From contig JAFRLS010000036.1 in assembly GCA_017431105.1 (NCBI GenBank), positions 66,594 through 114,361 on the forward strand: a DNA stretch of 47,768 nucleotides, in the 5' to 3' direction. The notes under the pieces were generated by a model that ran no database searches, was not told the origin of the DNA, and saw nothing but the letters and a program-made list of their open reading frames with translations. Positions within the stretch are counted from its first letter, which is position 1. Each line of letters opens with the position of its first letter. Positions 1 to 47,334 of the stretch are shown in pieces. The position numbers and the translations under genes were made by a program. This DNA comes from Candidatus Saccharimonadota bacterium. Its GTDB lineage: Bacteria > Patescibacteriota > Saccharimonadia > Saccharimonadales > Saccharimonadaceae.

Positions 1-147
1 CAAACCGTATTCCCAGAAATCACTTTCGAAGATGCAGCTGTTCTCCATGGCCTTGAAGTAACATTTATAATTAAGAATGGTTCAAAGGAAGGAAGCACTA
101 AATTGCTAGAACTCTTCGGAATGCCGTTTGAGAAAGGAGATAAGTAA
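1..147 (+). CDS. rplE: Ribosomal protein uL5, C-terminal part (5' end outside window)
   Basis: Frame 1 is open from the first base to a TAA at 145-147 and gives the last 48 residues of uL5. The C-terminal pattern is recognisable: TVFPEI near the start and LLELFGMPF near the end, matching the family's final strand and the LLxxLGMPF tail. uL5 binds 5S rRNA and the central protuberance of the large subunit. The rpsN Shine-Dalgarno site (GAAAGGAG, about 132-139) lies inside its last codons, and rpsN starts one base after the stop, as in a normal spc operon. Upstream spc genes are presumably outside the window. Confidence 0.93.
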
Positions 148-148
148 G

Positions 149-418
149 ATGGCTAAGAAATCTGCTGTACTCCGCGACGAAAAACGACGCAAGATGTATG
201 AAAAATATAAAGCTAAACGTGCCGAGCTGAAAGCTGCTGGTGACCTAGAAGGTCTTCAGAAATTGCCACGTAATTCTTCGGTTACAAGACTTAAAAATCG
301 TGATATGCTTGATGGTCGTCCACGTGGTTATATGCGCCGCTTTGGACTTTCACGTATTAATTTCCGCGAAAAAGCCTCAAAAGGTGAAATCCCGGGTGTA
401 ACTAAGAGTAGCTGGTAG
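149..418 (+). CDS. rpsN: Ribosomal protein uS14, zinc-free type
   Basis: An 89-residue uS14 of the small-subunit head. The start at 149 is chosen because MAKKS is the classic uS14 N-terminus and GAAAGGAG lies about 10 bases upstream; the frame is open a little further upstream inside rplE but without a start signal. The C-terminus has the conserved [11 protein letters not shown] and ends PGVTKSSW. There are no cysteines, so this is the long zinc-independent (C-) form, not the 61-residue CxxC form usual in Firmicutes. It is followed after 15 bases by rpsH with its own GAAAGGAG site. Confidence 0.95.
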
Positions 419-433
419 GAGAAAGGAGAAAAT

Positions 434-835
434 ATGTCATTACAATCTACTGATCAAATTGCCGACCTCGTGACTCGCATCCGCAATGCGGTACTAGTTG
501 GCAAGACTGAAATCCTCGTTCCTACTTCAAAATTGAAGCAAGCAATCGTAGAGATTTTAGTAAAAAATGGTTATATTGCTTCTTACAAAATAGAAGAAGC
601 TTCACCAAGAGGTCTTCTCCATGTTGTGATTACGGAACCAGGAACCGTTGCGAAAATCAACGAGATCGCTAAGGTTTCTAAGCCAGGTCGTCGTGTGTAC
701 TCATCATCGGCAGACTTGCCAGTAATTAAGTCTGGTCGTGGTACTGTAATTGTGTCAACCTCGAAGGGTTTGATGACTGGTCGCGAAGCTAAGAGAAATG
801 GTCTTGGTGGCGAAATTTTAGTTCGTGTTTGGTAA
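434..835 (+). CDS. rpsH: Ribosomal protein uS8
   Basis: A 133-residue uS8, which binds the central domain of 16S rRNA. The N-terminal motif DQIADLVTRIRNA and the C-terminal block STSKGLMTGREAKRNGLGGE are diagnostic, and the length is normal. GAAAGGAG sits 6 bases before the ATG. In most bacteria rplF follows immediately; here a hairpin terminator and two surface protein genes (994-7807) intervene before rplF. Confidence 0.96.
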   Translation: MSLQSTDQIADLVTRIRNAVLVGKTEILVPTSKLKQAIVEILVKNGYIASYKIEEASPRGLLHVVITEPGTVAKINEIAKVSKPGRRVYSSSADLPVIKSGRGTVIVSTSKGLMTGREAKRNGLGGEILVRVW

Positions 836-870
836 TTTACCCTAAACGGAAGTTTGACCGCTTCATGCAA

Positions 871-904
871 AATATCACCATATATAATGTATGGTGATAT
901 TTTC
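871..904 (+). terminator. Intrinsic terminator after rpsH
   Basis: Perfect 12-bp inverted repeat, AATATCACCATA at 871-882 and TATGGTGATATT at 890-901, with a 7-base loop and T-rich flank. It closes the upstream half of the ribosomal block and separates it from the surface protein gene at 994. Confidence 0.8.
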
Positions 905-939
905 TATGTTTAGAAAATATTTTTTAACATAAACAATAC

Positions 940-968
940 TTGTTTTAGAAAAGCACAAACAATATAAT
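940..968 (+). promoter_or_regulatory. Promoter of first surface protein gene
   Basis: TTGTTT (940-945), 17-base spacer, TATAAT (963-968). The predicted start of transcription is about 975, followed by AGTGGAGGAA and the ATG at 994. Confidence 0.7.
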
Positions 969-993
969 TATTTATGTAAAAGTGGAGGAAAAA

Positions 994-3168
994 ATGGCAA
1001 AACATAAAGTGGCTTATGTTGGCTCAGCGCTAGCTGTGGTCCTAGGATCGGGGCTTTTAGCTTCAACTGGCGCATACGCTGATGTCGATACCTGTGTCTC
1101 TGCTGGGGCGTTGGCGACGGAGGGCTTCGTCGCGAATGCAGCAGAACTTGAGTACGTCATCCAGAGCGGCATAGCCGAGATTAAAATTGCAGAGGATTTT
1201 GCGATTAATTGTCAACCAAGCATTATGACAAATAGTTTGAAGATTGACCTTAATGGTAAATCTGTGGCAGCAAATGCAGATTGGGCACTCGATCTTGAGA
1301 CTGCCGGTAAAACCTTAACCATTGAAGATAGTGGCGATGGTGGTAGGATTGATTTTAATAATAAAGGGATCTGGATTGAAGGCGGCGCGAACTTAACTAT
1401 CAACTCTGGCATTATTAGCGTGGCTGAAGGTGTTGGTAGAGGCATTGTGTTTAGAGATGGTACGTTGACACTTGCTGGTGGTACAGTTACTGCCAACAAT
1501 GGTGTGTCGGAAGTTGCTGCTGATGGGACGGAATATTATTACCCGACGATCATAGCGTTGAAAGATGGCGCTAGGCCAAATATCGTAATTTCTGGTACCG
1601 AAATCATTGCTGCCAACGGTACAGCTTTGTCTGTAATTGATGGCACCGTAGCCATGACAGATGGTAGAATTACCGGTGGTAATGTTGGCGTGAATCTTGA
1701 CGATGGTGCAGAATTTACCATGAGCGGTGGCGATATTACGGCAAGTACATGGGTAGTTTCAGCCTATAATGACACAACATTCACTATGGATGGTGGTACA
1801 ATTACGACTACTGGTCCAGACAGTATTGGTGTATCTGGCAATGGTACTGCCGATCCAGCAAAGGGTAATTATGGTGGTAATGCTAGATTTAACTTGAACG
1901 GTGGTACGATTACGTCGAATGATCTTGGTGTCTATGCTCCACAAGTTGGTGGTGTAACTACTCTAGGTAGTAATTTGATTATCAATGCCACTAAATGTGG
2001 CGTAGAAGTACGTGCTGGTACTCTGAACGTGAATGGTGCTACTATTACGGTAGATGAAAATATTGATCCAATATTTAATCCAAACGGTAATGGTTCTACG
2101 GCTGAAGGTGTGGCTATTGCTGTAGCTCAACATACTACCGAACAGCCAATTGATGTAACAATTGGTGGTGGCGTTTTTACGGCCCCAATTGCGTTTGGCG
2201 AATCTAATCCACAGAAAAATGACGGGACGGCTGTCGATCAAATTACTTTGGCAATTCATGGTGGTACTTTTAATGCTACAAATGGCGATCCGGTGGTGGC
2301 CAGTGAAGATGTAGAGAAATTTATTGATGGTGGCGCTTTTAATAAATATGTAGAAACTAAATATATCGCGGATGGTTATAGGGCTAATTCGGTTTCTAAC
2401 GGCGCAACGTACGTAGTTTTACCGATTTCTAATACTGCCACCACAGATGATACTGGTGGCGAAAATGCTGATGAAAACCAGGAAGAACTCAATAGTGTAG
2501 CTCAGGATGTACTTGGCGCACTTTATAATAATTATAACGATTTAGTCGGTGATGAGCCTGTAGAGCTTACTTCTGATACTGGTACAAAGTTCTTGATTGA
2601 GCACCCAGAAGCTGCACGAGCGGCGTTAGAAAATGGACACACTATAGTTATGGCTTTGGATGGTCATGAAATTGACATAGATAGTTTAGGTGATGAAGAG
2701 AAGGCGGAGCTTGAAGCGATGCTTGAGAGTGGTATGGTGCCGTTCGGTTTACTTGACTACTGGATTGATTTAAATGAGACTGATGGAATTAGCTCTGGCA
2801 GTTGGCTTGGTGTAGTAACGGAGACTCCGAATGCCATAGAGTTTACCTATGATGTATCTATGGCTCCAGAATTGCCGGAAGGCATCACTCGTATTTGGAA
2901 AGTGATTCGTGTTCACGGGAATGATGTGGATATACTTGATGCGGAATATGATCCAGAAACGAAACTTGTATCATTTTTGAGTGATAAGTTTTCGGCTTTC
3001 GTGATTACATATACTGATATTGCTACCGCTCCATACACTGGTACGATGACTGTAATGGGGGCATCTGTGGTAAGCGCTTCACTTGCTACCGCAATCTCGA
3101 TTGGCGTGGTTACTTCAATCTTTAGCTTCATAGTTTTAGCAAGAAAACTTTACGCTAAGAAAGATTAG
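994..3168 (+). CDS. Sortase-anchored surface protein with beta-helix-like repeats (PYTG signal)
   Basis: A 724-residue exported protein. ATG 994 is chosen over the in-frame GTG at 982 because GTGGAGG is the ribosome binding site. Residues 1-29 are a signal peptide with probable cleavage at AYA|D. Residues about 60-480 contain many short G-G-T-I-T/DGGTIT-type turns spaced like the coils of a right-handed parallel beta-helix. After a spacer come an Asp/Glu-rich segment and a strand ending SDKFSAFVITYTD, then A-PYTG (680-683), a hydrophobic helix and a basic KLYAKKD tail: a complete cell-wall sorting signal. The next gene (3362-7807) has the same head and tail, so they are tandem relatives. Anchoring by the sortase at 46627 is inferred. 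Adhesion is likely but not proven. Confidence 0.85.
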   Translation: MAKHKVAYVGSALAVVLGSGLLASTGAYADVDTCVSAGALATEGFVANAAELEYVIQSGIAEIKIAEDFAINCQPSIMTNSLKIDLNGKSVAANADWALDLETAGKTLTIEDSGDGGRIDFNNKGIWIEGGANLTINSGIISVAEGVGRGIVFRDGTLTLAGGTVTANNGVSEVAADGTEYYYPTIIALKDGARPNIVISGTEIIAANGTALSVIDGTVAMTDGRITGGNVGVNLDDGAEFTMSGGDITASTWVVSAYNDTTFTMDGGTITTTGPDSIGVSGNGTADPAKGNYGGNARFNLNGGTITSNDLGVYAPQVGGVTTLGSNLIINATKCGVEVRAGTLNVNGATITVDENIDPIFNPNGNGSTAEGVAIAVAQHTTEQPIDVTIGGGVFTAPIAFGESNPQKNDGTAVDQITLAIHGGTFNATNGDPVVASEDVEKFIDGGAFNKYVETKYIADGYRANSVSNGATYVVLPISNTATTDDTGGENADENQEELNSVAQDVLGALYNNYNDLVGDEPVELTSDTGTKFLIEHPEAARAALENGHTIVMALDGHEIDIDSLGDEEKAELEAMLESGMVPFGLLDYWIDLNETDGISSGSWLGVVTETPNAIEFTYDVSMAPELPEGITRIWKVIRVHGNDVDILDAEYDPETKLVSFLSDKFSAFVITYTDIATAPYTGTMTVMGASVVSASLATAISIGVVTSIFSFIVLARKLYAKKD

Positions 3169-3170
3169 AA

Positions 3171-3199
3171 TTGACAATTTGCATAAAATATGTTATACT
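3171..3199 (+). promoter_or_regulatory. Near-consensus promoter placed before a terminator
   Basis: TTGACA (3171-3176), exactly 17 bases, TATACT (3194-3199), with TGT as an extended -10. It is among the best sigma-70-type matches in the window. It begins 3 bases after the stop of the first surface gene and points at the hairpin at 3214, so its transcript would be stopped after about 35-40 bases unless read through. Confidence 0.7.
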
Positions 3200-3213
3200 A
3201 AAGAAGTAGTATC

Positions 3214-3243
3214 AAAAATCCCCTCTGAGAGGGGATTTTTGGT
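3214..3243 (+). terminator. Intrinsic terminator between the two surface genes
   Basis: Perfect 12-bp stem, AAAAATCCCCTC (3214-3225) with GAGGGGATTTTT (3229-3240) and a TGA loop. It ends the first surface gene, and also lies directly downstream of the promoter at 3171-3199, so it could attenuate that promoter. Confidence 0.85.
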
Positions 3244-3253
3244 AAGAATTATC

Positions 3254-3282
3254 TTGTTTTTTGTATAGATGTGGTATATATT
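3254..3282 (+). promoter_or_regulatory. Promoter of second surface protein gene
   Basis: TTGTTT (3254-3259), 17-base spacer, TATATT (3277-3282). It gives a leader of about 70 bases that contains an AAGGAG site at 3294-3299 and a possible 12-codon open frame (TTG 3305 to TAA 3343) before the true SD GGAGG near 3348. Confidence 0.55.
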
Positions 3283-3361
3283 ATTATTAATAGAAGGAGT
3301 GTGTTTGGGTAGTTCGGTGGGGCCCGAGCTCGTTTTTAACTAACTATGGAGGAAAAAACGA

Positions 3362-6300
3362 ATGAATATAAAACTAAAATTTAAGCGGACGAGCTACATT
3401 GCGTCGGCATTAATTTTAATGCTCACAATGGTGCCAATTGTGCCAAGTAGTAGGACATATGCGGACGAATTACCAAGTTGTGCATCCGACGAAGCAACGT
3501 TGGTATCGTTAATGGCAAGCGCAGATAGTTTTAGCCTTTGCGACGACATTACAAAAACCAGTGTAGTAATTTCGAAAAATCTAGAAATTGATTTGGGCGG
3601 TCATACACTCTATAGCAAAGTATATATTAGTGAAGGAAACGTTGTTAGTATTCATGATGGCACGATTGACGCATCAGTAATTACTGACAATGCAGTGTTA
3701 AATAAAGGCACTTTGACGCTCACGAACGTAGACGTTGTGGCTATGGGTGGCCAAATGGCTGTAACTGGTAGTGGTGTTACGACTTTGGTTGGTGGTAGCT
3801 ATAGCAACAATGGAAGCTATGTGCTAAAGGCGAGTGGTGCTGGATATATAGTAGTAAAATCTGGTACAGTGAATGGTGGTTTAATTGGTGATGTTAGGGT
3901 TGAGGGTGGTATTTATACGGTTGATCCTTCTGCTAATGTTATGGTTGGTTACGCGGCTTATAAAAATGGTAGCAATTGGCGTGTGGAGACTAAATTGACA
4001 GATGGAGCGGGTGGTAATTTTAAATTTAATGTGAGCGAAATTAGAATTAAAGAAGGACAAATTTTATCGCTTGATGAAATCTCGGATTTGATTGATAGGC
4101 CGGCAGATTCTACGACTGGTTTAGCTTATTATGCTAATCCATCTGCAGGTGTGGCAGATATAAATTATAGTGGTAGAAATGCTAAGGGTACTGGCTTATT
4201 GGGGTTAAAAGAGGGCACAGTGAATTTTACTGTGCGCCCACTCTATGATACGAGCCTTAGGACTGATGCGCGTGTGATAGTCGAGTCTGGTTTGGTTGGG
4301 ATTAATGTTGATGATATTGCGGTCCTGCAAGAAGGCACCGCGCGTAAGGCTATTTCCAATGTGTATGATGGATCTGTGGCTTATCCGGAATATGTGACCG
4401 GTGTTACTTATGAAGTTGATACTACTAGCTTAGTTGATGGTTTAGAAGCGAGAATTAGTACTGCCGGTGATGAGTTGGTTGTTACCACTGGTAGAAATGC
4501 AAAGATTGCAGCTGGCGATTACACTGTAAGAGTAAAAGCTTTGAAAAATGGCGTAGATACCAATCTCTACAAAGACGTAAATGTAAGTGTAGGCGATGTG
4601 TTCACTGGATTTACAATAGAACAGGCAACTGATACAACGATTACTTTGGCTGAGAATGAGACGCTCGATTTAACATTATCTGATGCACAGACAATGGGTG
4701 ATATAATTGGCGTAGCTATTACGGATATTGCTGGCTCAAGTGACGTAGTGAGCGTAAGCGGTACTTCTTTAGTTGGCAATAAAAATGGTGCTGGCTCATC
4801 AAGCTATGAAATTACCGCTACTTATACAAGTGACAATGGTCACACTTATGATGTGAAACAAGTTTATACGGTAGAAGTAACTTCGGCCTTGCGTGCTATT
4901 GGCGTGCGTAATGCTGACGACAATGATTATTCTGGGCCGCGTTATGGTAATGAATCTGGTGAGACTGAGTTAACGATGAGTAATGGTGACGCTGCTGAAT
5001 TAAAAATTACAAAAGATTCTTATGATGCAGGTGTACGTAGTTATGAAGTGACTTCTGCCGACACTACGATTGCAGATGTTTCTTACAACGATGCGACTGG
5101 TGAATTTATCGTTCATGGTAGGAGTGTTGGTACGACAACTATTACAGCAACAGCGGCTCCAAGAGGTTTAACTATTCCAGTGAGCAAGACTTTTACGGTG
5201 GTAGTGGAACCAGTATTTGTATCATTTAATATTGATAGTCCATCAATTAGCCTGCTTGAGGGCGATACGATTCAAATTGGCGTGAATAATATCCAAGAAG
5301 CTGGAGTCGAGGATGCAATTAGTTGGAGCTATAGCGATTATGATAGTTCTATAGTTAGCATAAATACTGATGGCGTAGTAAATGGCTTAATGGCTGGTAC
5401 GACTAATTTCAAAGTGTCTGGTACTTTTACTACTCCAATGGGTCGCATAATTACGATTGAACGTCAAGGCACGATTGAGGTGTTACCGTTGCTTCGTTCA
5501 ATTACGACTGCAGAAAAATATTTTGTGGAGCTTGGCAGTGAAGAGGATTTAGCTATTACAGTTGATGATGCAAGAGTGACTCCTACGTACACTTACATTT
5601 CAGATAACGAGTCTGTAGCCGTGGTGGTAGATGGTAAAATCCAAACTCGTGGTGGCGGCAAGGCTACGATTACAATTAGTGCTACGAATAATGGTGTGAC
5701 GGTTTCTACGACTACGGACGTGTATGTTTATAAATACGCTACAGACGCGGAAGATAAATATTATACTGCTATTGGTGGCCAGGCTATAGAATTCAATATG
5801 AGTGAGGCCTACAATCAGGATTCAGTGTCTTGTAAAATTAGTGGTAATGATTGCGCAGGTGATCAAAACTTGAGTGTAGTGAAGGATGCTGATGGTAACT
5901 ATACGATTACTGCTAAAGCTGGTGCGAGGGCAAATACGTATCATTTGACTTTCACGGATAAAGTAGATGAAAGAACGATTGCCACTAAAAATATTGATAT
6001 TCATGTACACGAAGTATTAATTTCGGATGCAAGTGATAAATATCTGAAAGTGGGTGATGATTCAGCACGTATTACGGTGCGTGAAGCTAATGGCAATACT
6101 GGTCATGGCAGTATTATTTATAGGATTTACGACGTAGCTACCGGCAGTGAATCGGATGGAGTGACGGTCTCTAGACGTTCAAATAACTATACTTTGCGAG
6201 CTGCTAGAGCTGGACAGTATGAAATAAGATTTATCAATGTGGCGAGTTCTGGCGAGGAGGTAACTTCAAAGTCAGTGATGGTTTATGCGATAGACTTTAC

Positions 6301-7807
6301 GGTTAATGATACCGAATATTATATTACCGTAGACGACCATGAGCCGAAATTAGTTACGACGCTTAATGAATATTGGAACGAAACTTGGAAAGAAGATACT
6401 ACTGGATTTAAGATTACTAAAGATTCTGATACCGAATACTATTTCTGGCCGACTACAGCTGGTGCTGGCAACTATACATTAAGGTTTACTGCTTTAGTGA
6501 ATGGGGAAGTGAGAGACACTAAGTCTGTAATAGTACATGTCTATAAGATGGTGGCACCAACCGAAACCACTTATTATGGCCGAGTTGGAAGTACTTTTAA
6601 TGTGCGCGTGGCAGACGAAAATAGAGACGCTTACACTACGGCTGAAGTAATCGAAGGTAGTTCAGATGGATTGATGTTGATGAGGAATCCGCTAAATGGT
6701 CGCTTATTTAGCAATATGGTAGTGGCGCGTAATGCAGGTGAATATCGGGTGCGTTACGAAGATCATATGGCAAATGGTGCGGTAGCTGGTACATATGAAG
6801 CAAAATTTGTCATCATCAATGTTGTAGAAGAAACCTTATTGGTGGCTCAAGGTGATAAGATTGAGATTTCAGATAATGGTGATTATACTGTAAGCTTTGC
6901 TGAAGATGAAACTAGGAACGTGGAGCTAGAGATTAAGGACGGTAAAGCTGTATTTGATAGCGTAAATGTTCAACCTGGTAGATATAATGTTTCAATTATG
7001 CATGATTTTGAAGATGGTGCACGTGAAGTTATAAAAGAGACCACTGTAATAGTTTATAAGATTTCGGCTGATGGTAGCGATTTAACTGGTGTCACCGCGG
7101 ATACGGTAAAGAAATATCTTGAAGATTTGATGGCAAATGGTCGCATAGAAGATTTAATAGATGATAATGGAATTCTGTCGTTCTTTAGACTTTTGAATCT
7201 GTTAGGTGATGCCGATACTCAAGAAATCTTTGGCGATTATTTCGAAGGGTATGGTAGCTTAACTGGTCTTCGTGATGCATTGAACGATGGTGATGAGGTC
7301 ATTACTAAGATTGAAGTGAACGAAATTAATGATACTGTATCTGATGAAGATAAAGAAGCGATTTTAGGGGCGCTTGATGGTCTTGATGTGGCTCACGTAG
7401 GCTACTATGATGTGTCGGTATTGATGCAAGTGAATGGTGTAACAATTGGTAATTTACATAAATTGAGCGACAAAGCTGTCGTGGCTTTAGCCCTAACAGA
7501 AGACCCAGAGACTGGATATCTTCGTCAATATTTCGTTGTGCGCAAGCACAACGGCGAAGAAGCCGAACTATTAGAAGAAGGCGTAGATTTCTATATTGGT
7601 AGTGATGGTTGGATTTACGTTTTGTCTGATAGATTCTCGACTTTTGCAGTAGCCTATACGGACACCGTAGCTCCGGAGACTCCGGATACCGGCGTAAACA
7701 CCAATATTGAAGTTGGTGCGGCCCAAAGCACAATTGTGACTTCTATTATGATTATAATTTCTATTGTGACTTTGGCTGGTGCAGTAAAGTTTGCCAAAAA
7801 GCATTAA
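3362..7807 (+). CDS. Giant sortase-anchored surface protein with Ig-like repeats (PDTG signal)
   Basis: 1481 residues. A basic N-terminus and hydrophobic stretch end in TYA|DE, a signal peptide. Residues about 35-210 repeat the head of the neighbouring surface protein (short Cys-containing segment, then IDLGGHTL and beta-helix-like turns). Residues about 350-800 hold several Big_2-like Ig folds with the typical VSxxG-VxG-xxGTTxIT pattern. Residues about 800-1190 hold four or five further repeats, each starting with a YY/KY-type strand and ending AGxYxLRF...KSVxVxVY. The C-terminus has DRFSTFAVAYTD, T-PDTG (1441-1444), a membrane helix and KFAKKH. This makes a long, stalk-like wall-anchored protein, probably an adhesin. 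SD GGAGG lies about 10 bases before ATG 3362. A terminator follows at 7815. Confidence 0.87.
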   Translation: MNIKLKFKRTSYIASALILMLTMVPIVPSSRTYADELPSCASDEATLVSLMASADSFSLCDDITKTSVVISKNLEIDLGGHTLYSKVYISEGNVVSIHDGTIDASVITDNAVLNKGTLTLTNVDVVAMGGQMAVTGSGVTTLVGGSYSNNGSYVLKASGAGYIVVKSGTVNGGLIGDVRVEGGIYTVDPSANVMVGYAAYKNGSNWRVETKLTDGAGGNFKFNVSEIRIKEGQILSLDEISDLIDRPADSTTGLAYYANPSAGVADINYSGRNAKGTGLLGLKEGTVNFTVRPLYDTSLRTDARVIVESGLVGINVDDIAVLQEGTARKAISNVYDGSVAYPEYVTGVTYEVDTTSLVDGLEARISTAGDELVVTTGRNAKIAAGDYTVRVKALKNGVDTNLYKDVNVSVGDVFTGFTIEQATDTTITLAENETLDLTLSDAQTMGDIIGVAITDIAGSSDVVSVSGTSLVGNKNGAGSSSYEITATYTSDNGHTYDVKQVYTVEVTSALRAIGVRNADDNDYSGPRYGNESGETELTMSNGDAAELKITKDSYDAGVRSYEVTSADTTIADVSYNDATGEFIVHGRSVGTTTITATAAPRGLTIPVSKTFTVVVEPVFVSFNIDSPSISLLEGDTIQIGVNNIQEAGVEDAISWSYSDYDSSIVSINTDGVVNGLMAGTTNFKVSGTFTTPMGRIITIERQGTIEVLPLLRSITTAEKYFVELGSEEDLAITVDDARVTPTYTYISDNESVAVVVDGKIQTRGGGKATITISATNNGVTVSTTTDVYVYKYATDAEDKYYTAIGGQAIEFNMSEAYNQDSVSCKISGNDCAGDQNLSVVKDADGNYTITAKAGARANTYHLTFTDKVDERTIATKNIDIHVHEVLISDASDKYLKVGDDSARITVREANGNTGHGSIIYRIYDVATGSESDGVTVSRRSNNYTLRAARAGQYEIRFINVASSGEEVTSKSVMVYAIDFTVNDTEYYITVDDHEPKLVTTLNEYWNETWKEDTTGFKITKDSDTEYYFWPTTAGAGNYTLRFTALVNGEVRDTKSVIVHVYKMVAPTETTYYGRVGSTFNVRVADENRDAYTTAEVIEGSSDGLMLMRNPLNGRLFSNMVVARNAGEYRVRYEDHMANGAVAGTYEAKFVIINVVEETLLVAQGDKIEISDNGDYTVSFAEDETRNVELEIKDGKAVFDSVNVQPGRYNVSIMHDFEDGAREVIKETTVIVYKISADGSDLTGVTADTVKKYLEDLMANGRIEDLIDDNGILSFFRLLNLLGDADTQEIFGDYFEGYGSLTGLRDALNDGDEVITKIEVNEINDTVSDEDKEAILGALDGLDVAHVGYYDVSVLMQVNGVTIGNLHKLSDKAVVALALTEDPETGYLRQYFVVRKHNGEEAELLEEGVDFYIGSDGWIYVLSDRFSTFAVAYTDTVAPETPDTGVNTNIEVGAAQSTIVTSIMIIISIVTLAGAVKFAKKH

Positions 7808-7814
7808 CCAGAAT

Positions 7815-7853
7815 CGAAAAAGTAAAGGGGTGATGCTCTTTACTTTTTCGTAT
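7815..7853 (+). terminator. Terminator after second surface gene, overlapping rplF promoter
   Basis: Perfect 13-bp inverted repeat, CGAAAAAGTAAAG (7815-7827) and CTTTACTTTTTCG (7838-7850). The 3' arm contains the TTTACT -35 element of the next promoter. The T tract lies inside the arm, so termination strength is uncertain. Confidence 0.65.
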
Positions 7854-7867
7854 ATTTGTGCTATACT
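7839..7867 (+). promoter_or_regulatory. Promoter restarting the ribosomal block (rplF-rplR-rpsE-rplO)
   Basis: TTTACT (7839-7844), 17-base spacer, TATACT (7862-7867), preceded by TGC (extended -10). It lets the second half of the spc block be expressed independently of the inserted surface genes. Confidence 0.7.
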
Positions 7868-7897
7868 GGTAGAGATATTAACAATAAGGGAAAAGAT

Positions 7898-8434
7898 ATG
7901 AGTCGTATCGGAAAACAACCCATCGAAATTCCGGCGGGAGTGACAATTACGGTCGGCGACAAAGAGATTACTGTCGCAGGCCCAAAGGGTCAACTCATCG
8001 TCCCGGTGCAGCCGAATACCACTACAAAGGTAGAAGGCACTCAGGCGATTGTCACCCGTAAGGATGACGAGCCAAAATCTCGAGCTTGGCATGGACTCCA
8101 GCGCGCGCTTCTTAATAACGCCGTTGTTGGCGTGACCAAGGGGTACGAGAAAAAACTAGAAATTAACGGTGTAGGTTTCCGTCTATCGGGCGGTGGACAA
8201 GAAATCGAAATGGCACTTGGTTTTTCACATCCAGTGAAATACAAAGCTCCAGAAGGCGTCCAACTTACTACTAATAAAATGGAAATCACAGTGAGTGGTA
8301 TCGATAAACAGAAAGTCGGTCAAGTTGCCGCTGAAATCCGTAGCCTTAAGAAGCCAGAACCATATAAGGGTAAAGGCATTAAGTATGTGGATGAAGTAAT
8401 CATTCGTAAGGCTGGAAAGGCAGGGAAGAAATAA
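7898..8434 (+). CDS. rplF: Ribosomal protein uL6
   Basis: 178 residues starting [15 protein letters not shown], the family N-terminus. The start at 7898 is preferred over an in-frame upstream ATG at 7856, which lies in the promoter. The conserved C-terminal block [16 protein letters not shown] is present. uL6 sits near the base of the L7/L12 stalk and the sarcin-ricin loop. The stop codon overlaps the rplR start by one base (TAATG), indicating translational coupling. Confidence 0.96.
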
Positions 8435-8763
8435 TGAATAAGACTTTTAGAGCGAATCGTACTCGTGCGAAGATTCACGGTACTGCCGAGAGGCCACGCC
8501 TTTCTGTTCATTTTTCAAATCTTCATATTACTGCACAAATTATTGATGACGATAAGAAAACTACGCTTTGTTATGTCACTACAGTTGGTCAAAAATTGAC
8601 TGGCACTAAGACAGAAAAAGCTGCAAAAATCGGTGAGGAAATTGCTAAAAAGGCAAAAACCGCTAAGATTTCGAAAGTAGTATTTGATCGTGGTGCTAAA
8701 TTATATGCAGGCCGCATGAAAGCTTTGGCTGATGCTGCCCGCAAGGAAGGATTGGAGTTTTAA
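8434..8763 (+). CDS. rplR: Ribosomal protein uL18
   Basis: 109 residues. [20 protein letters not shown] matches the 5S-rRNA-binding N-terminal region (RxRxRxKIxGTxxRPRLSV), and [28 protein letters not shown] is the usual C-terminus with FDRG and the GLEF end. Slightly short for the family. It begins on the last base of rplF and ends one base before rpsE. Confidence 0.96.
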
Positions 8764-8764
8764 T

Positions 8765-9562
8765 ATGCCTGAATCTGAGAAAAAAGCCCCAAGAGTAATT
8801 AACAAGTCCGGCACTCTTAAAATGGATGACAAAGTTGCTGCTACTAAGGAAGTGCGCGACATTGCCGGTAAGAAAATGGATCGCAAGAATCGTCGCGATC
8901 GCGTTAAGGCTGAAGCTGGCCCGAAGGAATTTGATGAAATTACCATTGCGGTAGATCGTGTTTCTCGTACCGTGGCTGGTGGCCGCCGCATGCGTTTTAA
9001 AGCTTTGGTTGCAATTGGTAATCACAAAAACAAGGTTGGTATTGGCGTAGCTAAGGGTAACGATGTAACTACTGCAGTTGCAAAAGCTACCACTAAAGCG
9101 AAAAAATCAATGATTACCTTTAATATGAATGGAGAAACGATTTGTCACGAGACTCGTACTAAGACTACTGGTGCAGATGTATTATTGAAACCAGCTGCCC
9201 CTGGTACTGGTATTATTGCTGGTGGTACAGTACGTTCGATTATGGGTCTCACCGGTGTGAAGAACTTGATTTCTAAGTCGCTAGGTTCTACCAACAAGGT
9301 AAACATTGCTTATGCTGTGATTGAAGGTTTAAGGCAACAGGTTCCACGTTCAGAATGGACTGGCAATGCTGGTAAAAAAGCCGAAATGAAGATTAAAGCT
9401 AAGGTTGAGAAGCCAGCTGAAGTTAAGAAAAAAGCCGAGGCGAAGGTTGAAGAACCAAAAACAAAGCCAGTTGTAAAGAAGCCGGTAGCTAAAAAAGTTG
9501 CTGTGAAACCTACTGCTAAGAAAACCGTTGCGAAGAAACCTACTAAAAAGGAGACCAAGTAA
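8765..9562 (+). CDS. rpsE: Ribosomal protein uS5 with long Lys/Ala-rich C-terminal tail
   Basis: 265 residues, against about 165 in most bacteria. The core (about residues 55-210) is intact: VSRTVAGGRRMRFKALVAIG is the uS5 double-stranded RNA-binding motif, and the GTGIIAGGTVRSI segment follows. Residues 1-50 are a charged extension, and residues about 212-265 form a histone-H1-like tail of repeated KKP/AKK/TAKK units. Start at ATG 8765, 1 base after rplR; an in-frame upstream start inside rplR is rejected. rpmD (uL30), normally next, is absent; rplO starts on the last base of the stop. Confidence 0.95.
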   Translation: MPESEKKAPRVINKSGTLKMDDKVAATKEVRDIAGKKMDRKNRRDRVKAEAGPKEFDEITIAVDRVSRTVAGGRRMRFKALVAIGNHKNKVGIGVAKGNDVTTAVAKATTKAKKSMITFNMNGETICHETRTKTTGADVLLKPAAPGTGIIAGGTVRSIMGLTGVKNLISKSLGSTNKVNIAYAVIEGLRQQVPRSEWTGNAGKKAEMKIKAKVEKPAEVKKKAEAKVEEPKTKPVVKKPVAKKVAVKPTAKKTVAKKPTKKETK

Positions 9563-10023
9563 TGAAATATAATGATTTAGTAGTAGAAAAGAATACTCGT
9601 CCAGCGCGCAAAGGTCGCGGTATTTCAGCTGGCCAGGGTAAAACTGCAGGCCGTGGTACTAAAGGCCAAAAGGCTCGTACTGGTCATCGCAAGATGCCAG
9701 CAGGGTTTATGGGTGGTCAACGTGCTATTATGCAAGCAGTACCAAAGCTCAAAGGCTTTAAATCTTTCCATGCTAAGGCTGAAGTAGTTTACACTGATCG
9801 CTTAAATGATCTTAAAGGCAAGGTTGATAACTTTACTTTGGCAGAAAATAGTTTAATTTCGAGCCCATTTGCAAAAGTGAAAATCATTTCACGCGGTGAG
9901 CTTACTGCCAAGATTGAGCTTGAGACGCAATTTGCTTCCAAATCTGCCATTGAGGCGATTAAGAAAGCTGGTGGCTCGTTTAAAAAAGTTGCAATCCTAC
10001 AAAAAGCTAAGAAAGAAGCCTAA
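9562..10023 (+). CDS. rplO: Ribosomal protein uL15
   Basis: 153 residues. GRGISAGQGKTAGRGTKGQK is the Gly/Arg-rich N-terminal tail that threads into 23S rRNA, and GFMGGQ follows. It overlaps the rpsE stop by one base. secY, usually next, is about 35 kb away at 45222, so this gene is the end of the local operon, confirmed by the terminator at 10031. Confidence 0.95.
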   Translation: MKYNDLVVEKNTRPARKGRGISAGQGKTAGRGTKGQKARTGHRKMPAGFMGGQRAIMQAVPKLKGFKSFHAKAEVVYTDRLNDLKGKVDNFTLAENSLISSPFAKVKIISRGELTAKIELETQFASKSAIEAIKKAGGSFKKVAILQKAKKEA

Positions 10024-10030
10024 GTATTTA

Positions 10031-10060
10031 AAAATAACTCCCTAAGGGGAGTTATTTTTG
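10031..10060 (+). terminator. Terminator of rplF-rplO operon
   Basis: 12-bp stem AAAATAACTCCC (10031-10042) with GGGAGTTATTTT (10047-10058), loop TAAG, T tract. The extended -10 of the next gene begins within a few bases of it. Confidence 0.9.
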
Positions 10061-10069
10061 TGTTATAAT
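10061..10069 (+). promoter_or_regulatory. Extended -10 promoter of FKBP-like gene
   Basis: TGT followed by TATAAT (10064-10069), directly after the terminator T tract. No good -35 at 17 bases, since that position lies in the hairpin. Confidence 0.6.
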
Positions 10070-10091
10070 TAAGAGAAGTAAAGGAGTGTTT

Positions 10092-10814
10092 ATGGAAGAG
10101 AAAGAACTAAAAACTAGTCCGAAACAGCGGTTCTTAATTATTTTGATTGCGATAGTGATGTTAGGTTCAATTATTGCGAGTTATGCAGCGATTGTGATAA
10201 ATGGCGGCAAATCCGCTACTGACAGTTCTACCTCTACTATTAGCGAAGAAAAAGTTATGGCTTATGAAGAGGAATATAAGAATAAATTAAACGAATTAGC
10301 CGAAATAACAAAGGGTGATTTTGATAAGTTCATTCAGTATAAATCTCGAGTCACTGCCTATAATGAAACATCAGCCAATTCTGGTGGTGTTGAAACAACA
10401 GATTTATTAGTTGGTGATGGACGCACACTTGAGGACGGCGATAACGATTATCTTGCTTATTATATTGGTTGGTGTGCAGATGAGACGATTTTCGACTCCT
10501 CGCTTGATAGTACTACTAATCCTACAGCTTTCAAGAGTGCGCTCGATGCTTCACTTGGCATGATTGAAGGATGGGATATGGGTGTAATTGGTATGAACAT
10601 TGGCGGTGTACGCGAAATTACTATTCCAAGCGAACTAGCCTACAAGGATCAGAGAGAAATTTGTGGTGGCTACAATAAGCCATTAAAGTTTTTGGTGATG
10701 GCGGTAGCAAAGGAAGATCCATTAAAGACTTTGGCTGAGGAATTGGATTTAGCTTTCATGAAAGTCCAGTACGCCTACTACGGCATTGACTATGATGCTG
10801 AAATAGGTAGCTAA
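10092..10814 (+). CDS. Membrane-anchored FKBP-type peptidyl-prolyl isomerase (probable)
   Basis: 240 residues. ATG 10092 follows AAGGAG at 10081-10086 with a 5-base gap; a GTG at 10086 is part of that site. Residues about 15-40 form one membrane helix with a Lys/Arg-rich cytoplasmic end, so the rest should be outside. The C-terminal half (about 115-220) matches FKBP: a GWDMGVIGMNIGGVREITIP segment followed by SELAYKD, equivalent to the family's GMxxGxKRxxTIPPxLAYG, with a Cys-containing insertion and a closing LKFLVMAVA strand. Several FKBP active-site aromatics cannot be confirmed, so catalysis is inferred. A role in folding exported proteins would fit the surface-protein context. It has its own promoter. 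Confidence 0.75.
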   Translation: MEEKELKTSPKQRFLIILIAIVMLGSIIASYAAIVINGGKSATDSSTSTISEEKVMAYEEEYKNKLNELAEITKGDFDKFIQYKSRVTAYNETSANSGGVETTDLLVGDGRTLEDGDNDYLAYYIGWCADETIFDSSLDSTTNPTAFKSALDASLGMIEGWDMGVIGMNIGGVREITIPSELAYKDQREICGGYNKPLKFLVMAVAKEDPLKTLAEELDLAFMKVQYAYYGIDYDAEIGS

Positions 10815-10816
10815 TA

Positions 10817-10845
10817 TTGACTTTTTTAAGCATATGTGCTATAAT
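10817..10845 (+). promoter_or_regulatory. Strong promoter of three-helix membrane protein
   Basis: TTGACT (10817-10822), 17-base spacer, TGC-TATAAT (10840-10845). It is nearly the same as the promoters at 35872-35900 (+) and 30527-30555 (-). Confidence 0.8.
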
Positions 10846-10853
10846 ATAGAGTG

Positions 10854-10893
10854 TAGACTATCTCTTGATTGAGGTGGTCTAAGTATAAACCAC
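10854..10893 (+). other. Leader with two mutually exclusive hairpins
   Basis: TAGAC (10854-10858) can pair with GTCTA (10877-10881), and GTGGT (10874-10878) can pair with ACCAC (10889-10893); the two share bases 10877-10878. The leader of the gene at 10925 could therefore switch folds. Stems are only 5 bp, so this is weak evidence. Confidence 0.3.
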
Positions 10894-10924
10894 AATGATT
10901 AAAAAATCTAGGGAGGGTGGAATA

Positions 10925-11431
10925 ATGAGTCCATATTGTGGTCCGTTTTCGGTCGGTTTTAACTTCTGGATGGTGGTGGCGCCACTTTTAATGGTGGCTA
11001 TGGTGGTGTTCGAAGCGAGGAGCTATAGAATATTTCTGAAATCGCTCTATATCTATAGAACACACAATGATAAAGCTACTTTGATACTGTCCGGGTTATT
11101 CACGTTGCTCGTAACGACTATGGTTGTTGCAGAGTCGAGCGATGGGATTGTCCAATATTTCCATAACGGATTAGAAAAATATGAAAGTCCGTTTTGGTCT
11201 TATGTGGGCTTAGCTTTCGCTACGATAGTGGTGTTCATTGTTTATTGGGTAGCGCTTTTCTTTGTGGGAAAGGTTGCGGCTTATGCTAAACTTGGGTACC
11301 TTTGTGAAAAGAAACGACAGTTAGGAATCACGAGACGGCGTCAAGAAATGATACAAAGGATGAAACCTTTTGTTTTGCCGGAGAATCATTTTGCAGAAAG
11401 ATCGAAAAAGAAAGAGAACCCCCGGGTATAA
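10925..11431 (+). CDS. Three-helix membrane protein of unknown function
   Basis: 168 residues, not recognised. ATG 10925 is chosen because GGGAGGGTGG lies just upstream; an earlier in-frame ATG (10895) precedes that site. Hydrophobic segments lie at about 10-28, 55-75 and 98-122, with a strongly basic C-terminal tail (about 125-168, many Lys/Arg) that should be cytoplasmic. It has a strong private promoter and leader. The last codons form the 5' arm of its terminator, with the stop codon in the loop. Nothing around it fixes a role. Confidence 0.75.
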   Translation: MSPYCGPFSVGFNFWMVVAPLLMVAMVVFEARSYRIFLKSLYIYRTHNDKATLILSGLFTLLVTTMVVAESSDGIVQYFHNGLEKYESPFWSYVGLAFATIVVFIVYWVALFFVGKVAAYAKLGYLCEKKRQLGITRRRQEMIQRMKPFVLPENHFAERSKKKENPRV

Positions 11432-11449
11432 TACCCGGGGGATTTTCCT
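11419..11449 (+). terminator. Terminator containing the stop codon of the upstream gene
   Basis: Ten-bp GC-rich stem, CCCCCGGGTA (11419-11428) with TACCCGGGGG (11432-11441), and the TAA stop of the membrane protein gene as the 3-base loop, followed by ATTTTCCTTT. Confidence 0.88.
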
Positions 11450-11464
11450 TTATTAAAATGCTTG

Positions 11465-11493
11465 TTGTTTTTGGAAAAAAGTTATGGTATTAT
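11465..11493 (+). promoter_or_regulatory. Promoter for leaderless secreted-protein mRNA
   Basis: TTGTTT (11465-11470), 17 bases, TGG-TATTAT (11488-11493). The start codon of the next gene is 8 bases after the -10. Confidence 0.65.
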
Positions 11494-11501
11494 ATGAATA
11501 T

Positions 11502-12071
11502 ATGAAGGCAAAAAGAGCACTGCTAGTTATTAGTGTACTTGTGGGGTGTATCGTGTTGGCGCAAAGTGCGAGGGGAATTACTTATCAGTCGGAAACTACA
11601 GTAGAATTTACATTAAATTCGTCTAATACGCTGACTATATCTGGTGATGCGATTTTAGCTTTGGCACCTGGTACGTTTGGCACAAGTTCTAGTATAACTG
11701 TTGTTATGACTACTACTAATTTAACAGGCGCTAAATTAATGGCAGATGTTGGTAAAAATGAGAGTCCTTACGTAACTAATAATTTGGTTGGTACAAACGG
11801 GCATTTCACGAGCCTAGATTATCAGGCTAGTGGTTCAACGCCAGTAAATGCATTATTAGATAATTATTGGGGGTATTATACTACTACTTCTAGTGCCCTT
11901 TATGGGTTACCGCCCATCAATATTTTTTCTCCGAAACAATTGAAAATAATTAATACTAGCGGTTCGAACAGTACTAATTTTTCTATAGGCGCAAAAGCTT
12001 CGAGTACGCAGCCATCAGGTACTTATTTGAATTATGTGAATTTTACAATGGTGGCGAATCCTGCAACTTAG
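11502..12071 (+). CDS. Small secreted beta-rich protein, possibly WxL/pilin-like
   Basis: 189 residues. ATG 11502 is preferred over 11484, which overlaps the -10 element; the mRNA should be leaderless. Residues 1-25 are a signal peptide (KAKR then a hydrophobic core, cleavage near ARG|I). The mature part is Ser/Thr/Asn-rich and predicted beta; the end, PSGTYLNYVNFTMVANP, resembles the last strands of WxL-type and related surface beta-sandwich domains (PxGTYxxxVxxT). No cysteine and no sorting signal are seen, so it is either released or held non-covalently. The stop codon TAG abuts the ATG of the exonuclease gene. Confidence 0.65.
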   Translation: MKAKRALLVISVLVGCIVLAQSARGITYQSETTVEFTLNSSNTLTISGDAILALAPGTFGTSSSITVVMTTTNLTGAKLMADVGKNESPYVTNNLVGTNGHFTSLDYQASGSTPVNALLDNYWGYYTTTSSALYGLPPINIFSPKQLKIINTSGSNSTNFSIGAKASSTQPSGTYLNYVNFTMVANPAT

Positions 12072-45103: not shown

Positions 45104-45177
45104 AACTGAATAGTATCACTCGGGGTTGAGTCCGATTTCGGAACACCCCGAGTTGATTATTATTCAGTTGTTTTTTA
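45104..45177 (+). terminator. Long bulged terminator after rpoC
   Basis: Three stacked helices: AACTGAATA (45104-45112)/TATTCAGTT (45161-45169), CTCGGGGT (45119-45126)/ACCCCGAG (45145-45152), TCCGA (45131-45135)/TCGGA (45138-45142), then a T-rich run that contains the secY -35. Confidence 0.85.
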
Positions 45178-45196
45178 TTGTTAGGTATGATATTAT
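45168..45196 (+). promoter_or_regulatory. Promoter of secY-sortase unit
   Basis: TTGTTT (45168-45173), 17 bases, TGA-TATTAT (45191-45196), overlapping the rpoC terminator tail. Confidence 0.65.
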
Positions 45197-45221
45197 TATA
45201 GGTAGTTATTCAAGAGGTTAT

Positions 45222-46649
45222 ATGCATTTCAAGACGATTTTCAAATCCTTAAAGAACAAAGACATGCTGAAAAGAGTGGGTATTATATTTGGTATTTTAA
45301 TAGCGTATAGGCTGCTAGCGCAAATACCAGTGCCGATGGGTGATGCTTCTACTTTTAAAGAAGCCGTGTCGAATTTGATGGAGAAATCGGATTTTTCAAA
45401 TTTCCTAAATTTGATTTCTGGTGGTGGTTTGGCATCATTTAGTATTATTTTGGTCGGTCTCTCGCCGTATATTACGGGTTCTATTGTGATACAACTTTTA
45501 ACTAAAGCAATTCCGTCACTTGAGGAGCTCTCCAATGATGGTGAATCCGGTAGGAGGAAAATTAACCAATGGACAAGAATGTTGACTGTTCCATTGGCGA
45601 TAGTGCAATCAATTGCTTATATATTTATTCTGTATCAGTCTACGGTTTCGGCTAATATCGCTTCTGATTTTACGCCAACGATGGGCGATTGGGCTTTGTC
45701 TGTAGTAGCAATGACGGCTGGTTCGGTTATATTGATGTGGCTTGGCGAGCTAATTACTGAGCAGGGTATCGGTAATGGTATTTCTACTTTGATTTTTGCT
45801 TCAATTATTTCACAGTTGCCAACTACGATGGCCTCACTTGGCACTGCGTTGTTTGATACCAGCGACGGAGCTTTGAATTTATTTGGTTGGTTAGAATTGC
45901 CGGTGAACCCAGTAGTATTTTGGATCATTCTCGGGTTTGCGGTTGCGATGCTGGTGGTAATTTACTTCCTAGTTAAGATAAATGAAGCACAGAGAATAGT
46001 TACGATTAACTATGCTAAACGCGTGCATGGTAATTCGTCTTATGGTGGGATTAAATCGATATTACCAATTAAACTTATTGCGGCAGGTGTGGTGCCAGTG
46101 ATTTTTGCGACAGCGTTCCTTTCTTTGCCGGCTTTAGTTGGTCAAGTAATCACTTCGGTTAACCCTGGTAATGAGTTCGGCGAATCGCTAGTTACAATAT
46201 TCTCGGCTCCTTCGGCAAATAACTTTGCGTCAATGTATCCAGATGGTATTACTGGGCGATGGTTTGTTTATCCAGCATTTTACTTTGTGTTAGTATTTGC
46301 ATTTACGTATTTCTATACCTCGATTATTTTCAATACAAAAGAGATTGCCGATAATCTACAAAAACAAGGTGGTTTTATTGAAGGCGTGAGGCCTGGTATC
46401 AAAACGGCTGAATACCTCGGCAAGGTCGTGAATCGCTTGAATCTATTTGGCGCTTTGGCACTAGGTTTGATTGCGATGTTGCCATTCATTACGGATTATA
46501 TATTTATTATAATTACGGGTGCTCCGATTGGCCTTTCAATCTCGGGTACTGGGCTTTTGATTGTGGTGACGGTGGCGTTAGAGAATCTCAGGTCGGTGGA
46601 TTCCCGGGCTCTAATGATAACTTACGATGATTTCCAAAATGAGTCTTAG
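45222..46649 (+). CDS. secY: Preprotein translocase subunit SecY
   Basis: 475 residues. ATG 45222 follows AAGAGG; the frame is open upstream to 45126 but that region is the terminator and promoter. Ten hydrophobic helices with the SecY blocks IAYRLLAQIPVPMG, GLSPYITGSIVIQLL (helix 2), GELITEQGIGNGIS (helix 5), NYAKRVHGNSSYGG (cytoplasmic loop), and FIEGVRPGIKTAEYL (loop 8/9). It forms the Sec channel that must export the surface proteins of this window. adk and map, the usual next genes, are absent; a sortase gene overlaps its end instead. Confidence 0.96.
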   Translation: MHFKTIFKSLKNKDMLKRVGIIFGILIAYRLLAQIPVPMGDASTFKEAVSNLMEKSDFSNFLNLISGGGLASFSIILVGLSPYITGSIVIQLLTKAIPSLEELSNDGESGRRKINQWTRMLTVPLAIVQSIAYIFILYQSTVSANIASDFTPTMGDWALSVVAMTAGSVILMWLGELITEQGIGNGISTLIFASIISQLPTTMASLGTALFDTSDGALNLFGWLELPVNPVVFWIILGFAVAMLVVIYFLVKINEAQRIVTINYAKRVHGNSSYGGIKSILPIKLIAAGVVPVIFATAFLSLPALVGQVITSVNPGNEFGESLVTIFSAPSANNFASMYPDGITGRWFVYPAFYFVLVFAFTYFYTSIIFNTKEIADNLQKQGGFIEGVRPGIKTAEYLGKVVNRLNLFGALALGLIAMLPFITDYIFIIITGAPIGLSISGTGLLIVVTVALENLRSVDSRALMITYDDFQNES

Positions 46650-47334
46650 GCTTAATGTGGGTTGGAAACAAATTGTAAAGTGGGTGGCGATAGCCATAGC
46701 GGCGATTTTATTGGCGGTGTTCTTTATAAGAGTAGCCTTGTGGGAAGGTTCATATTATCGTGAAAAAGAGGGTAGCGAAAGGGATGTTATTGCGGCTCAG
46801 CAGGAGGAAGAGGAAGAGGAATTAATAGAAGTAGAGCCGACCGAGGAAGAGGTAGTAGAATATGTCGTACCACCAGACCATCCTAGATATCTCACAATTG
46901 AAACATTGGGGATTTATAATGCAAGAATAATCCCGATGGGGGTGGGGGCGTATGGCGAACTAGATACGCCGAATAATATTTTTGATGTGGGTTGGTATGA
47001 GTCGTCTGGTATGCCTGGACAAGGCAAGACTATGTTGATAGATGGGCATAATGGTGGGCCACACGTGCACGGCGTTTTTAAAAATTTACCAGATTTGGGG
47101 AATGGTGATATTATAACGGTTGAGCGGGGCGATGGTTTAATCTATAGATATTCTGTAGTAGAAAATTATGAAATACCGATTGATGAGTCTGATTCGTATA
47201 TGTCTACCGCTATGCGTTCGCCGGAGGCTGGGAAAGAATCGATAACCTTGATTACTTGTTCGGGTGAATGGTCACAAGTGCAAGGAACCTATATGGCTAG
47301 ACAGTTTGTTCGAGCAGTGTTGGTTAGTGCTTAA
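46627..47334 (+). CDS. Sortase (transpeptidase) overlapping secY
   Basis: 235 residues from ATG 46627; ATG 46639 (MSLRLN) gives a shorter overlap of 11 bases and is equally likely. One N-terminal membrane helix (about 18-36), a Glu-rich linker (about 50-78), then the sortase barrel with the catalytic His in LIDGHNGGPHV, the catalytic Cys in LITCSGEW and the Arg in ARQFVRAV. It should cleave a PxTG-type signal between T and G and attach the protein to the wall. The two surface proteins at 994 and 3362 carry PYTG and PDTG signals. Class (E/F-like) is not certain. Translation is coupled to secY. Confidence 0.92.
   Translation: MISKMSLRLNVGWKQIVKWVAIAIAAILLAVFFIRVALWEGSYYREKEGSERDVIAAQQEEEEEELIEVEPTEEEVVEYVVPPDHPRYLTIETLGIYNARIIPMGVGAYGELDTPNNIFDVGWYESSGMPGQGKTMLIDGHNGGPHVHGVFKNLPDLGNGDIITVERGDGLIYRYSVVENYEIPIDESDSYMSTAMRSPEAGKESITLITCSGEWSQVQGTYMARQFVRAVLVSA

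Follow-up and report, generated by a model that had tools for sequence, protein, structure and literature searches.

The genes rpsH and rplF are among the most conserved neighbouring ribosomal gene pairs in bacteria, and their adjacency within the spc operon is commonly taken as near-invariant. In the pneumococcal capsule locus, the cps genes reside between dexB and aliA. Insertions of genes into the conserved ribosomal operon cluster have been published; the rearrangements described there involve a few genes and occur chiefly between operons. Horizontal gene transfer hotspots that are flanked by core genes and lack mobile elements have also been described, with excess recombination reported in the flanking core genes (Oliveira et al. 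2017, PMC5635113). Here we analyse a 47,768-nt stretch of a Candidatus (Ca.) Saccharimonadota genome (assembly GCA_017431105.1, contig JAFRLS010000036.1; hereafter the window), in which 7062 nt separate the rpsH stop codon from the rplF start codon, both genes lying on the + strand, and compare this interval, termed the slot, across related Saccharibacteria.

The slot resembles the hotspots of Oliveira et al. in its fixed conserved borders, its fast gene turnover, the lack of a detected integrase and the natural transformability of relatives; in contrast to them, it lies inside the spc ribosomal operon and is common to a whole genus. Two features expected of a core-gene-flanked hotspot, conserved borders and high gene turnover, were both found, and the comparison with other sites covered the two adjoining junctions. 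It shares with the published ribosomal-cluster insertions the placement of genes inside the cluster, whereas here a single internal spc junction is open genus-wide and accommodates variable cargo that can reach tens of kb. No earlier description of such a slot was found in the open-access literature searched. The preliminary description of sortase-type surface genes in the middle of the spc operon is borne out and understates the case, as the interval is a genus-wide accessory-gene slot that sits in a divided ribosomal operon and abounds in surface functions. We consider it probable, at roughly 0.8, that in Ca. Nanosyncoccus-type Saccharibacteria accessory genes gather at the rpsH-rplF junction, a hotspot shared by the whole genus whose chief role is cell-surface diversification.

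Coordinates of rpsH and rplF were gathered for 174 genomes of the genus, 151 of the family and 127 of the class, all of them species representatives and most of them metagenome-assembled genomes (MAGs); gaps were counted where both genes lay in order on one contig, and the counts refer to the matches listed. The genus, a group of tiny gut Saccharibacteria, is the one containing Ca. Nanosyncoccus alces, since the rpsH of a congener of the window (G151) is identical to that of Ca. N. alces NZ_PRLM01000001.1. Its 103 pairs have a median gap of 4473 bp and a maximum of 54.8 kb, with 88 gaps of at least 400 bp, 85 over 1 kb and 27 over 10 kb; the possibility that the interval is compact in all close relatives, raised in the preliminary description and checked across Saccharibacteria, is thus contradicted by most congeners. 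Besides these pairs, the two genes lie on different contigs in 33 genomes, and their order is reversed in one further genome (G208, contig C6), where about 72 kb lies between them and the two halves of the operon seem to have parted completely. In other genera of the family, the 115 pairs have a median gap of 40 bp, and 36 of them reach at least 400 bp (Fisher p = 1.5e-16 for gaps of at least 400 bp in the genus versus these genera, species not being independent). Outside the family, all 57 pairs are compact (126 bp or less), so that rpsH-rplF adjacency is the rule elsewhere in the class, in line with the strong conservation stated in the preliminary description. The neighbouring junctions are preserved within the genus: rpsN and rpsH remain joined in 101 of 103 intervals, both exceptions being cut by contig ends, and rplF and rplR in 103 of 103, leaving rpsH-rplF as the only open one of the three junctions examined.

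Sequence signals conserved across the genus suggest how such an opening may be tolerated. Of the 88 occupied slots, 83 have a terminator-like hairpin no more than 130 nt from rpsH, and nearly all slots, most compact congeners included, show an extended -10 element about 36-44 nt upstream of rplF (90 of 93 slots versus 1.6% of control windows, scored in a fixed window; 13 of 15 compact congeners). Compact members of other genera, among those readable in the right orientation, are devoid of this element, whereas two members of other genera with insertions (G125 and G081) carry it. Because a terminator follows rpsH and rplF has a promoter element of its own, we infer that the spc operon is divided into two transcription units around the slot, so that DNA inserted between rpsH and rplF need not disturb ribosomal gene expression. 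The earlier proposal that surface genes are placed here for high or growth-linked expression would imply selection for a position beside ribosomal genes, and the cargo is indeed mostly co-oriented within a normally highly expressed operon. However, the hairpins after rpsH, the promoter-like sites of the window's own cargo, the separate promoter element of rplF and the location of part of the cargo on the opposite strand leave that proposal unsupported, and such selection appears improbable; gene-dosage effects of map position, which belong to the same explanation, could still contribute.

The cargo differs by species, and some slots are empty. Among the 103 slots, PxTG surface proteins occur alone in 29 and a capsule-type cluster alone in 14, with both present in 9, while the remainder comprise 5 with an rpoBC block, 4 with an arginine-deiminase pathway, 27 with other or unclassified cargo and 15 that are compact (<400 bp). 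PxTG proteins therefore occur in 38 of 103 slots and a Wzx/Wzy-type capsule locus in 23 of 103, and Pfam matches of representative cargo proteins support the class names. The main sorting motifs are of the form [TA]P[DEN]TG. The capsule representatives include Wzy_C, Wzz, CpsB_CapC, Glycos_transf_2 and LytR_cpsA_psr, which co-occur in slots and stand for the polymerase, chain-length protein, phosphatase, glycosyltransferases and ligase of such a locus, together with a recurring protein of about 500 aa with 9-14 predicted transmembrane segments and no Pfam match, a candidate Wzx flippase. Of 35 congeners without CpsB/CapC in the slot, 29 lack this marker altogether and 6 carry it elsewhere. The cargo of these relatives resembles a pneumococcal-type capsule locus in having a Wzx/Wzy-type cluster with CpsB/CapC, Wzz plus an ATPase domain and LytR-CpsA-Psr, in a fixed place with variable content; unlike such a locus, the slot has ribosomal borders, and in other species the cluster is replaced by or combined with giant PxTG proteins, while it is absent from the window. 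Four loci (L155, L172, L174 and L177, in G309, G310, G306 and G313, respectively) are filled by arginine deiminase, ornithine carbamoyltransferase and a DcuC-type carrier. In another (L151:1013-4774, G191), the main cargo is a protein of 1254 aa that combines several lectin domains of the ricin-B type with a hydrophobic segment close to its N-terminus. Slots initially labelled 'R', considered as a possible unknown system of large proteins, were rejected as such, because their genes proved to be rpoB, rpoC and leuS and reflect a rearrangement within a single clade.

Turnover of the cargo was assessed on a phylogeny built from 11 ribosomal proteins encoded upstream (80 rows, 59 labelled species), which replaced a poorly resolved tree of rpsH and rplF only, with 43 of its 99 inner branches open. 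Across the 59 labelled species, cargo type must have changed at least 22 times, compared with a mean of 31.4 after shuffling; therefore, cargo partly follows the tree, yet changes often. Well-supported branches alone force at least 14 changes for surface cargo, 7 for capsule cargo and 4 for the 5 compact genomes. The suggestion that the window's arrangement is a recent insertion finds no support, since the open slot is genus-wide and its cargo is frequently replaced; this concerns the slot and not the age of the window's own cargo. Among detectable pairs of surface proteins from different species, median identity is 32-42%, as against about 88-90% for the ribosomal proteins of the species compared. 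Some capsule genes are closer between species than the ribosomal proteins of their hosts (95.4% versus 89.2%), and the identity of UDP-glucose dehydrogenase does not track host identity (r = -0.15).

One explanation for the movement of the cargo is that it represents an integrative element that targets the rpsH 3' end by site-specific insertion and restores the gene. Extra rpsH 3' ends, which such an element could leave behind, occur in two genomes. In G150, a surface gene is followed directly by a copy of the rpsH 3' end that is truncated and shares 87% identity with the intact one, then by a terminator and a capsule cluster; this arrangement reads as a scar, in which a block of rpsH plus surface gene may have become attached to an older junction between rpsH and capsule genes. 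In G018 (L228), from another genus of the family, a near-identical duplicate of the last 26 rpsH codons and at least 70 nt of downstream sequence lies about 1499 nt after rpsH. However, the remaining intervals that were retrieved, the window among them, showed no such duplication, and none of 53 intervals contained a tyrosine integrase (PF00589, Phage_integrase; serine recombinases and transposases were not searched for), even though tyrosine integrases are present elsewhere in these genomes, which makes an integrative element decidedly improbable. The preferred, though unproven, route of exchange is recombination of imported DNA, whereby cargo would be gained, lost and exchanged with the conserved ribosomal genes serving as homology arms. 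Natural transformation of the com type would be a likely means of import: ComEC was detected in 12 of 13 congeners tested, including the window's genome, and comEC-dependent transformation has been shown in another saccharibacterium, Ca. Southlakia epibionticum (PMC10633639). In its broadest form, this scenario would make the ribosomal operon a cross-species docking site, in which the conservation of rpsH and rplF allows imported surface and capsule cassettes to recombine in between them, yielding a surface-switching and perhaps host-range-setting locus of this epibiotic lineage. We offer it tentatively, as a possibility with less than an even chance.

Several points weigh against reading the slot as an exchange locus for surface functions. 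At the species level, pairs that share the same cargo and pairs that do not show no difference in the relative divergence of rpsH and rplF (p = 0.11), and the congruence of these two genes with other ribosomal genes equals that of those genes among themselves; the excess flank recombination of the hotspots described by Oliveira et al. was thus tested for and not seen at this level, and recombination in the flanks is accordingly put forward here as a hypothesis. The comparison spans species representatives, and the turnover described is turnover between species. Interval DNA was translated by simple rules, and the cargo classes were assigned by simple motif, hydropathy and BLAST rules. Moreover, surface functions are not all that the slot contains, given the 27 of 103 slots with other or unclassified cargo and the five with a housekeeping block (rpoBC, leuS). 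Such slots, along with the arginine-deiminase ones, would be expected if the junction were only a permissive site, where the gain of a terminator and a promoter split the operon and left a neutral junction, at which assorted genes come and go with no selected exchange of surface functions; the lack of excess recombination in the flanks and the retention of the rplF promoter element in most compact congeners fit this account as well. Set against it are the strong recurrence of surface functions, which occupy the PxTG, capsule and combined classes enumerated above, and the far higher frequency of capsule clusters in the slot than elsewhere. A purely permissive site is therefore unlikely, while retaining real weight, and a hotspot devoted chiefly to cell-surface diversification is preferred.

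In the window itself, the separation of rpsH and rplF by about 7 kb with two exported PxTG proteins is confirmed, as are the flanking terminators and promoters, at the level of predicted signals. All features listed in this paragraph lie on the + strand. The left border is rpsH (434..835; 30S ribosomal protein S8; Pfam Ribosomal_S8, E-value 6.6e-38; NCBIfam equivalog), followed by a terminator-like hairpin (869..903) that includes a 27-bp palindrome, and the right border is rplF (7898..8434; 50S ribosomal protein L6; L6_bact equivalog TIGR03654, E-value 4e-68). The first open reading frame, ORF1 (994..3168), encodes a 724-aa protein, for which ATG 994 is preferred as the start over GTG 982 because of the ribosome-binding site GGAGG; a promoter-like site (TTGTTT-17-TATAAT, 940..968) precedes it, and a terminator-like hairpin readable in both directions follows it (about 3219..3240). 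ORF2 (3362..7807), encoding a 1481-aa protein, has a promoter-like site upstream (TTGTTT-17-TATATT, 3254..3282) and a terminator-like hairpin downstream (7815..7850). The putative rplF promoter (TTTACT-17-TATACT, with the extended -10 TGnTATACT) is located at 7839..7867. Terminator-like sites are enriched in positions 1-12000 of the window (20 versus 7.2 +/- 2.7 in shuffles), whereas promoter-like sites show no overall excess over shuffles, and single sites such as those of ORF1 and ORF2 are consensus matches only; the rplF site is stronger than a plain consensus match because it is conserved genus-wide. An Rfam scan of positions 1-12000 gave no match.

The palindrome at 873-899 (TATCACCATATATAATGTATGGTGATA) has close variants 28-62 nt 3' of rpsH in five species and none elsewhere in about 1.5 Mb checked. 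It was considered as a recombination site and rejected; as it is found in five species only and always right after rpsH, it is more likely a terminator variant. At 3171-3240, a strong promoter-like site (TTGACA-17-TATACT) occurs right after ORF1 with a hairpin terminator shortly behind, which may specify a very short RNA.

Inspection of the sequence, together with motif and hydropathy rules, identifies in both ORF1 and ORF2 an N-terminal hydrophobic signal-type segment and, at the C-terminus, a sorting signal (APYTG and TPDTG, respectively) with a hydrophobic stretch and then a basic tail behind it. ORF1 matches no Pfam family. Its AlphaFold model, built from 12 sequences with a mean predicted local distance difference test score (pLDDT) of 69.8, contains a beta-helix over about residues 43-470 that resembles Vag8, pertactin, tailspikes, the L. 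reuteri SRRP and pneumococcal PfbA (VIA-align Z 20-32). A Foldseek search with the model returned nothing below an E-value of 0.001, and the beta-helix assignment is based on the strand pattern of the model and the VIA-align Z values, describing the fold and implying no enzyme activity. ORF2 shows only weak Big_2 matches, under the Pfam cut-off. Like the sortase-anchored adhesins PfbA and SRRP, these proteins have a signal segment, a sorting motif, a hydrophobic stretch and a basic tail, with a beta-helix body in ORF1; unlike them, slot proteins mostly carry the motif given above in place of LPxTG, and their anchoring and binding are predictions. From fold class and anchoring signals, the two proteins may be exported, sortase-anchored and act as adhesins or as a glycan-binding coat. 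The window's genome has three sortase matches above the cut-off, one of which lies within the window (46627..47331, + strand, PF04203) and is a candidate anchoring enzyme for ORF1 and ORF2. This sortase gene is overlapped by secY (45126-46646), which is positioned directly 3' of rpoC and about 35 kb from rplO, so that the secY-sortase pair stands outside the spc operon. Where a slot holds two surface genes, the giant gene usually comes first, and the window shows the opposite order. An assembly chimera or binning error at 840-7860 was also considered, the genome being a MAG with 7.7% estimated contamination; it is very unlikely indeed, because ORF1 and ORF2 homologues occupy the same place in many species in other assemblies, G151 among them, and slots of similar kind occur throughout the genus.

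Taken as a whole, a junction that is normally near-invariant is open across this genus with changing cargo, while both neighbouring junctions stay closed, which illustrates how a reduced genome can divide an essential operon and put the resulting gap to use for accessory genes. If the slot sets the cell surface, these epibionts, which are largely uncultured, could be typed at a defined locus, and the same locus would allow one to ask what determines their choice of bacteria to attach to.
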